Assembly: GCA_030729045.1 (NCBI GenBank) | Contig: JANQYF010000008.1 | Location: 1-64,000, forward strand | DNA length: 64,000 nucleotides | DNA from: Ilumatobacteraceae bacterium | GTDB lineage: Bacteria; Actinomycetota; Acidimicrobiia; Acidimicrobiales; Ilumatobacteraceae | Direction: 5' to 3' | Shown: piece by piece, positions 47,663-50,314 of the stretch | Numbering within the stretch: the stretch's first letter is position 1 | Layout of the letters: each line of letters begins with the position of its first letter | The notes under the pieces: model-generated | The model's input: only the letters and a program-made list of their open reading frames with translations | Told to the model about the DNA's origin: nothing | Databases searched by the model: none | Translations under genes and position numbers: made by a program

Positions 47663-49087
47663 TTAGTCGGTTCCCGGACGTCGTTCATCTTCGGCGTTCG
47701 GGTCACCTGCATAATTCGACGGGTACGAACGACGTAGTTCGTCTTCTGTCGGCTCGTAATACTCGCGTCCTTCTGGTGGAAGTAACGCGCTAATTGCAGT
47801 CATGATTGCAGCTGTATCTGCGTCGGGATCTGTGTACCCCAGATGCACCGGCGTGCCTACCACGATGATTACTTCTGGTGGCGAAGTGACATTCGTAATA
47901 TTCGGCAGTTTGGCATTTCGTGGCCACACTTTTTCAGTTCCCCAAATTCCAATCGGAATAACTGGCGCACGTGTTGCGGCTGCCAGTTTGGCTGCACCCC
48001 ACCTGCCCTTCAGAATCGGATCAAAAAATGCGCGACCGCGAGGAATGGTGCCTTGTGGCATCAACGCAACTAAGTCTCCAGCGTTGATTAATTCAGTAGC
48101 AGCAAGTAACGGTTCGTCGCTGCCAGTACCGCGTTCTACACGGATACCACCAAGCGCAGATGCGATTGGCCCAATGACTGGGGCATCAAACACTTCTTTC
48201 TTACCGAGGAAACGCACTGCCCGACCGGTCTTTGCAACAGCAAGCGATACAGCAGCAATATCGAAATAACTGCGGTGGTTTCCACACAGAATCGCTGCAC
48301 TGTCTTTCGGGATGTTTTCTGTACCCGTAATTGTGAATCGTGCGTATGGAAACACTTCCGGGCGCGCGAACTTCATAAGAAGCTGTTGAGCTTCCAAGCC
48401 AATAACTGGCACCTTTGCAACGCCATGCGGAACATCAAGGTGCATTACCGGCCAACGGCGTGCAGCAGCCATGAGACGAAGGCGCCAATCAGGGTTCACA
48501 CAATGCGGAAACCCCACAGAGGCCAGCAACGGCTCATCAAACACACTGTCGCTATACGCGTACGAACCTGACAGATCAACATCATTCTCTTGAGACCACG
48601 CGCGTACTGCATCGCGCTTACCGCGTGACCACACATAGGTGCCGTCAAGTTCTCCGGTGTACACACCTTCACTGTCAACACCATACGTAGTTGCAATCAC
48701 TGCGTCGAACCCCATGAGATCTGCGAACGGTTCAATGAGGTCACGTGGCGTAGTAGTTGCAAGTACAACACTTCGGCCTTCAGCACGATGTGAGTCAATA
48801 ACTTTTTGTGCATACGGTTGCACCATTGCCACTAAGTCAGGTGCAGCAATTCGCGCAGCTTCTCGCACTTCATCACGACTATGTCCACGCATTGCAAGAA
48901 CTGCTTGACGCCCGAGAACCATCGAGGGCAAGTTCTCACCAAACGTTTCAAAAATTGAATACATCAATGACTCGCCTGGAATTGTGCGAGTCACAATTCC
49001 TGTTTCACGAAGAACCCTGCTGACTACATGCGCAGAAGCACCAGACAAAATCGTTCTGTCGAGATCAAAGAAAGCTGCATGTGCCAC
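47663..49087 (-). CDS. Fused HAD-IB hydrolase / 1-acyl-glycerol-3-phosphate acyltransferase
   Basis: N-term FFDLDRTILSGASAHVVSRVL and SYAYSDSVFDEPLL; C-term PlsC motifs CGNHRSYFDIAAVSLA and LMPQGTIPRGR. Confidence 0.93.
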   Translation of the reverse strand: MAHAAFFDLDRTILSGASAHVVSRVLRETGIVTRTIPGESLMYSIFETFGENLPSMVLGRQAVLAMRGHSRDEVREAARIAAPDLVAMVQPYAQKVIDSHRAEGRSVVLATTTPRDLIEPFADLMGFDAVIATTYGVDSEGVYTGELDGTYVWSRGKRDAVRAWSQENDVDLSGSYAYSDSVFDEPLLASVGFPHCVNPDWRLRLMAAARRWPVMHLDVPHGVAKVPVIGLEAQQLLMKFARPEVFPYARFTITGTENIPKDSAAILCGNHRSYFDIAAVSLAVAKTGRAVRFLGKKEVFDAPVIGPIASALGGIRVERGTGSDEPLLAATELINAGDLVALMPQGTIPRGRAFFDPILKGRWGAAKLAAATRAPVIPIGIWGTEKVWPRNAKLPNITNVTSPPEVIIVVGTPVHLGYTDPDADTAAIMTAISALLPPEGREYYEPTEDELRRSYPSNYAGDPNAEDERRPGTD

Positions 49088-49140
49088 GAGCGAAGGTTAT
49101 GCCAACAAAACACGAGCCCGTTCCGCCATGACCCCAGAAA

Positions 49141-49254
49141 TGGGAAAGACCCCGCATAAGCGGGGCCTCTCAACCGAAACCCAATGATCGGGGGGGATCA
49201 TCTTGGTGGGTTCTTTCGGCCGGACGATGGGGGGCATGTCCGGCGCGATCTGTT
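49141..49254 (-). ncRNA. 6C: 6C-type actinobacterial small RNA (two C-loop hairpins plus terminator)
   Basis: Minus strand: GCCGGAC.ATG-CCCCCC-.CAT.GTCCGGC-like hairpin (49219-49244), TGATC-CCCCCC-GATCA hairpin (49185-49200), then CCCCGC-TTAT-GCGGGG + TCTTT (about 49143-49165); candidate promoter TTGAAT-N18-ATAATT upstream. Confidence 0.85.
49143..49167 (-). terminator. Rho-independent terminator of the 6C RNA
   Basis: GGCCCCGCTTATGCGGGGTCTTTCCC on the minus strand: 6-bp GC stem, 4-nt loop, short T run. Confidence 0.75.
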
Positions 49255-49300
49255 AGTGAAATTATGCACGAGTTGGCACCATCATTCAAGTTGAACGAGG

Positions 49301-49315
49301 CGATAGTTGCTATCG
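49301..49315. promoter_or_regulatory. Perfect 6-3-6 inverted repeat upstream of lysR, candidate LTTR operator
   Basis: CGATAG-TTG-CTATCG, 45 bp before the lysR start codon. Confidence 0.5.
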
Positions 49316-49360: not shown

Positions 49361-50314
49361 ATGGAAATCAAGCAGTTACAGAGTTTGGTGGCCATCGCCG
49401 ACCATGGCACATTTTCGGCCGCGGCCAAAGCCCTCGACACCGTCCAGTCCAATGTGTCAGCCCACATAGGTCGCCTTGAGAAGGAACTGGGCACTTCCCT
49501 CATTGATCGCTCTTCTGGAGTACTGACAGACGAAGGCGACATCGTGGCGGTTAGGGCTCGGCGCATCTTGCATGAAATGGAAGACATCGATGCCGACATT
49601 CATTCACTCGGATCTTCTACTACCGGTGAATGTCGCATCGGAAGTATCGGCACCACTGCCCGGTGGCTGATGCCATCTCTCTTGGCATCACTGCAACGTC
49701 ATCATCCGGGCGTGCACACCACAGTCGTTGAAGGCGTAACAAGTTCGCTCATATCGCGACTGACAAGTGGCGAGATTGATGCAGCAATAGTGCATCTACC
49801 CATTACGGATTCAAGTCTTGATGTAAAAGAATTGTTCGTAGAAGAGTTGTTTCTTATTGCACCAAAATCTCATGTACTAGCAACGCACAAGACGATCAGT
49901 TTGGAAGAGTTGTCATTGCATCCCATTCTTCTTGCGCCTCGCGGCACAGCACAACGCCGCATTATTGATAGAGCTGCTGCAAACCTGGGAGTCGCACTGC
50001 AATCGCAAGCAGAAATTGACGGCGTTCGTCTGATGGCTTCGCTGGTATTTGAAGGTTTCGGTGCTGCAATTGTTCCGGCAAGTGCTGTACCTGGATGGCT
50101 TGAAGGAAACTTTGTGCGCATTCCTGTTCCTGAATTACCCCAGCGCGTTGTCGGCTGGGTACAGCGCCCTCGTCCACGGCCAAACAGAGCAACCCTCGCT
50201 GTTCGTGACAGAGCGTTTGACATGGTGAACCGTCACGGGCCGAAACAGCCAGGCATCTCGATTGAAATCGGTGCAAAACCCACCAAGGGAAGCCTCGGCC
50301 CGCTCACTGTCTAG
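49361..50314 (+). CDS. LysR family transcriptional regulator
   Basis: MEIKQLQSLVAIADHGTFSAAAKALDTVQSNVSAHIGRLEKELGTSLIDRSSG. Confidence 0.95.
   Translation: MEIKQLQSLVAIADHGTFSAAAKALDTVQSNVSAHIGRLEKELGTSLIDRSSGVLTDEGDIVAVRARRILHEMEDIDADIHSLGSSTTGECRIGSIGTTARWLMPSLLASLQRHHPGVHTTVVEGVTSSLISRLTSGEIDAAIVHLPITDSSLDVKELFVEELFLIAPKSHVLATHKTISLEELSLHPILLAPRGTAQRRIIDRAAANLGVALQSQAEIDGVRLMASLVFEGFGAAIVPASAVPGWLEGNFVRIPVPELPQRVVGWVQRPRPRPNRATLAVRDRAFDMVNRHGPKQPGISIEIGAKPTKGSLGPLTV

Follow-up and report, generated by a model that had tools for sequence, protein, structure and literature searches.

A 6C-like small RNA gene with repeated C-loops and a linked lysR in Ilumatobacteraceae and their order

The window, a 64,000 nt stretch of a contig from an uncultured member of the Ilumatobacteraceae (GenBank JANQYF010000008.1), contains a small RNA gene that is 6C-like and not 6C; it represents a real RNA family, absent from Rfam and with a linked regulator. 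From its sequence, the gene is almost certainly autonomous, comprising a C6 hairpin, a C7 hairpin, a terminator and a promoter of its own (Table 1), and we infer that the RNA is actually transcribed. Control by the divergently encoded LysR is likely. The gene order is HAD-PlsC, RNA, lysR, and the location between these two protein genes, which the first-pass annotation had claimed, is borne out by gene coordinates. Both C-runs are on the minus strand where that annotation had put them (49234–49229 and 49196–49190), and the two C-loop hairpins with a GC-rich terminator hairpin after them, as it described, are upheld by folding and by covariation. It was also right that the element was unannotated: the RNA is not covered by Rfam, and family-wide scans gave no 6C match. 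The lysR link and the operator are the part that it missed.

Table 1. Coordinates of the RNA gene, its presumed control elements and its neighbours in the window
Feature	Position	Strand	Basis or remark
Small RNA gene, ~115 nt	49137..49254	-	ends predicted from the positions of promoter and terminator
Hairpin 1, C6 loop at 49229-49234	49216..49248	-	fold
Hairpin 2, C7 loop at 49190-49196	49177..49213	-	fold
Hairpin 3, terminator-type, GC-rich, GGUUGAGAGGCCCCGC-UUAU-GCGGGGUCUUUCC	49142..49175	-	fold
-10 element CATAAT of the RNA promoter	49261..49266	-	conserved CATAMT
-35 element TTGAAT, 17-bp spacer to -10	49284..49289	-	promoter pattern
Perfect 15-mer dyad CGATAGCAACTATCG, presumed LysR operator	49301..49315		25 bp before -35
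lysR, presumed regulator of the RNA	49361..50314	+	Pfam LysR_substrate and HTH_1
HAD-IB/PlsC fusion gene, 3′ of the RNA; separate unit, dispensable neighbour	47663..49087	-	no close match in some genomes that retain the RNA

The RNA region folds at −55.8 kcal/mol (z = −6.1), with none of 200 shuffles as good, and CCCAUUUC is directly 3′ of hairpin 3 on the RNA strand. Relatives were gathered via the HAD-PlsC protein, and most of the resulting 80 loci have the same element just 5′ of that gene. Covariation was assessed on 45 non-redundant copies in a plain sequence alignment with the three-hairpin structure. Changes on both sides of a pair, i.e. compensatory ones, are found in 32 of the 41 pairs and 223 cells. 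The corresponding means for shuffled controls are 21.3 pairs and 75 cells, with 0 of 500 shuffles as good, and slid controls do not exceed 17 pairs and 81 cells. The proportion of cells paired is 86% over the three hairpins (slid controls, at most 57%) and 99.1% for hairpin 3, but the percentage paired is biased upward as the consensus structure came from the same 45 sequences as the test. The size of the both-side changes is harder to explain by that circularity.

The C-runs in the loops are constant across the relatives, and the stems around them are variable. The longest run is of 5–7 Cs in the loop of hairpin 1 in 44 of the 45 relatives, and the same holds for hairpin 2 (44/45). The loop of the terminator, hairpin 3, has C5 or C6 in 32 of the 45, making it the last C-loop hairpin there; in the window it is UUAU, and the window's clade is one that lost the third C-run. 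Hairpin 2 is shortened, or without its C-run, in two loci of genus g3 (L142 and L143), and the number of C-loops therefore varies.

A covariance model made from the family relatives of the window RNA, R2, matches 49135–49259 with 101.4 bits (E 6e-22), the window RNA being one of the model's own members. The model detects the RNA, nearly always single-copy, in 132 of the 151 Ilumatobacteraceae genomes, which cover 26 of the 27 genera; it finds none in any of the 12 genomes of genus g253. Outside the family R2 matches are weak and mostly terminator-like, distant members of the order being hardly detected by R2 itself. Matches beyond the order were rejected as homologues since they are terminator look-alikes. 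The order was also read through the orthologous lysR, which is present in 90 of its 118 genomes, at 29 lysR loci, 26 of them from outside Ilumatobacteraceae. Divergent to lysR, at least one hairpin with a loop of five or more Cs is present at 28 of the 29, at least two at 22 and at least three at 8; two or more such hairpins occur at 1 of 29 control regions beyond lysR and at none of 29 antisense controls. The dyad is present at 24 of the 29. The layout of lysR, dyad, promoter and C-loop RNA is therefore old in the order Acidimicrobiales. In a MAFFT alignment across families the stems are too poorly aligned for an order-wide covariance model. Separately, records titled 'MAG: Bifidobacterium breve' (L002, L003, L023 and L063) carry the locus or its HAD-PlsC gene. 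The HAD-PlsC identity to the window protein is 98–99% for the first three and 61% for L063, and the records therefore look like mislabelled Acidimicrobiia.

The lysR orthologue is divergent to the RNA at 62 of 64 family loci, and a dyad of the GATA-N5-TATC type is present at 60 of the 64. At every one of these loci where both elements, dyad and promoter pattern, can be recognised, the TTGA of the −35 element follows the start of the dyad by exactly 25 bp. At that element AACTGTTGGACAGAT is conserved at the fixed distance order-wide, the T at +25 being invariant. No second full-length copy of CGATAGCAACTATCG was found in 970 kb of the window's own genome. Two family loci (L021 and L024) retain the RNA without lysR and without the dyad, and constitute a natural experiment for regulation in the absence of LysR. 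In genus g253, which is without the RNA, lysR was also absent from the four genomes tested. An adjacent lysR is also present in genomes G389, G361, G146, G404 and G070, and in three of these (G146, G070 and G361) the order carboxyltransferase-lysR-RNA-aconitase is intact with no close HAD-PlsC. The gene thus disposed looks like the switch of the RNA across the order, though LysR action on the dyad, and its direction, are presumed from sequence. The textbook spacing for LysR binding is T-N11-A. The dyad is not an exact fit to it, which sets the arrangement apart from the classical layout for LysR-type regulators; in common with that layout are the divergent promoter region and a dyad that is 5′ of the target's −35 and near the start of the regulator gene. 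The classical target is an enzyme operon, whereas the divergent target here is a small RNA.

The relationship to the HAD-PlsC gene is looser. On the minus strand TAACCT is present at 49099–49094, 6 bp before the GTG of HAD-PlsC, and no Shine Dalgarno sequence precedes that GTG (49087–49100); the box resembles a leaderless promoter. Relatives have similar boxes at the same place, suggesting leaderless HAD-PlsC transcripts. The first-pass annotation had taken the HAD neighbour as a pointer to 6C, and part of that argument stands: of 22 real 6C loci, 17 have beside them a HAD-IB gene homologous to the HAD domain in the window, and for the most part this gene is the best match to that domain in its genome. 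The reciprocal comparison failed: in 16 of the 17 cases the 6C-flanking HAD is closer to another HAD of the window's own genome, on contig C34, than to HAD-PlsC, and in a HAD tree the two groups stay apart. No C-loop RNA was found beside the HAD on contig C34. The 6C-flanking HADs are divergent to 6C and HAD-PlsC is in tandem with the window RNA, which does not have the placement beside an orthologous divergent HAD-IB gene seen in Rv3660-B11-Rv3661. Since HAD-PlsC is a paralogue in another orientation, and is missing from some RNA-bearing genomes, HAD synteny was rejected as proof of 6C kinship.

The name 6C itself had been given by the first-pass annotation on what it called the defining architecture. 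Two consecutive hairpins with about six or more Cs in their loops are indeed present, but B11 has three stem-loops, the second and third C-rich and the third serving as both terminator and pairing seed, so that it terminates at the second of its C-loop hairpins, unlike the window RNA (PMC12395582). The Rfam 6C model (RF01066; gathering cut-off, 47 bits) has no match in the RNA region, whether at that cut-off or with E relaxed to 5, none in the window's own genome and none in 11 related loci, and an Rfam scan of the sister families gave no 6C above threshold. This outcome of a check that the annotation had itself proposed tells against the name and not against the RNA. Some similarity, all of it sub-threshold, does exist in both directions. 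The best-scoring member of the order at this locus is L386, where the 6C model matches exactly this RNA with 34.1 bits (an E of 1.1 across 4227 families, or about 3e-4 if counted for 6C alone). Reciprocally, of 15 loci searched with R2, 10 show a match to the real 6C gene that is correctly placed, on the right strand and as long as the gene, with 15.8–32.1 bits (the best, L090, 32.1 bits at E 2.5e-5); in genome-wide R2 searches 6C genes are not ranked first. Deep kinship with 6C is therefore possible, and the cross-scores may be explicable either by common ancestry or by common design. At another locus of the order, L211 in genome G575, which also has lysR, a 6C match of 46.2 bits falls just under the cut-off of 47. 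The locus is unrelated, and the match was rejected as an instance of this RNA; it is a possible second C-loop RNA.

What, then, is the RNA? That it is a mere terminator, or chance hairpins in GC-rich DNA, can practically be dismissed: the R2 matches that are only terminator look-alikes lie outside the order, and the reading is refuted by covariation in all three hairpins, by the conserved promoter and by the presence of the RNA throughout most of the family. To serve HAD-PlsC as its 5′ leader or as an attenuator, the RNA would have to be on the same strand and shortly 5′ of that gene, as it is at most loci. However, a strong terminator intervenes, a separate −10-like box is right at the GTG, and the RNA and lysR persist in genomes without HAD-PlsC, which together render a leader function very improbable. 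The alternative with most in its favour, a true 6C orthologue that is much diverged and invisible to an Rfam model trained on other classes, is a real possibility that falls short of being probable. Like 6C of Mycobacterium, Corynebacterium and Streptomyces, the window RNA is an Actinomycetota RNA of about 100 nt whose hairpins have loops of 5–9 Cs, and the common plan extends to the intrinsic terminator hairpin, which has a C-loop of its own in most relatives of the window RNA; that R2, made from these RNAs alone, recognises 6C genes, and that the 6C model scores at L386, also speak for orthology. Against it, the window and its family have no Rfam 6C match, and C-runs in GC-rich hairpins could yield such cross-scores by convergence. 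The neighbours differ too: none of the 22 real 6C loci has a LysR gene beside it, and 6C is without the divergent lysR and operator found here, while the HADs are paralogous and oppositely placed. The number of C-loop hairpins is two in 6C/B11 and three in most species here, and the window's clade lacks the C-loop of the terminator. A bolder proposal, which we hold only tentatively, is that a LysR and the single C-loop RNA under its control form a hitherto undescribed order-wide module, of an origin independent of 6C and convergent with it in using repeated C-loops to silence G-rich ribosome sites, and are a main post-transcriptional regulator of Acidimicrobiales.

The function that we favour, with moderate confidence, is that of a stand-alone, LysR-controlled C-loop RNA that acts in trans to block G-rich ribosome-binding sites. 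LysR, with a co-inducer, would bind the dyad (49301–49315) and set transcription from the promoter at 49289–49261. The RNA of about 115 nt would fold into three stable hairpins whose loops carry C-runs, which in the window is the case for two of them. Hairpin 3 would be its intrinsic terminator, and translation would be blocked by base pairing of the single-stranded C-runs with G-runs in or close to ribosome-binding sites, as in mycobacterial B11/6C. The C-rich loops of B11 pair with G-tracts near ribosome-binding sites (PMC10470900; PMC12395582), and base pairing of B11/6C to ribosome sites was shown by deletion and reporter work (PMC10470900). The window RNA probably works like its mycobacterial counterpart. 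The C-rich-loop riboregulators of Gram-positive bacteria, named as a class in PMC12395582, have in common with the RNAs described here a C-rich terminator loop, the presumed seed for pairing with G-rich ribosome sites; the difference is that here there are two or three such C-loops.

Pairing of the C-loops with G-runs at ribosome-binding sites is, by analogy, somewhat favoured over the chance that it does not occur. In the window's own genome 16 of 907 genes have G5 at −20 to −3, including genes for acyl-CoA ligases, short-chain dehydrogenases, a molybdopterin dehydrogenase and an amidohydrolase. Over these 907 genes the enrichment of G5 in the Shine Dalgarno zone is not significant (16 against a dinucleotide-shuffle mean of 10.6 and maximum of 17). 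The best candidate target is an acyl-CoA ligase (L263:8836–8870). Its G5 persists in a genus without the RNA, and so could simply reflect a ribosome site rich in G. Among 16 close orthologues of this gene nine have G5 just before the start. Pairing is accordingly put forward as a proposal, because G5 is within local composition and because this one candidate's G5 persists where there is no RNA. The main functional rival to pairing is that the C-loops serve not as an antisense seed but as a decoy, attracting Rho, a cold-shock protein or some other protein with an affinity for C-rich single strands. Several equal C-loops on variable stems are as expected of a repeated protein site, and the lack of enrichment of G5 ribosome sites fits as well; yet for B11, the best-studied RNA with an architecture of this kind, mutation of the C-loop and its compensation show base pairing (PMC12395582), and we consider a decoy unlikely.

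At one further locus, L066:6235–6303 on the minus strand, there is an above-threshold Rfam match (42.8 bits) to ASdes, the tuberculosis antisense RNA of a desaturase gene, which may merely reflect desaturase coding sequence. In a limited literature search, which is not proof of absence, no small RNA of the order was found described. The relatives of the window organism have been recovered from metagenomes of lakes and seas, and most of what is known of them is their genomes. A small RNA that is nearly always single-copy and comes with its own regulator and operator would provide Acidimicrobiales with a riboregulatory circuit open to testing. The 6C/B11 principle of repeated C-loops on a rigid RNA would widen to a lineage in which the standard model is blind, and the window RNA lets one ask if the C-loop design has a single origin or two. 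The linkage to LysR hints that a metabolite signal acts ahead of a C-loop RNA.
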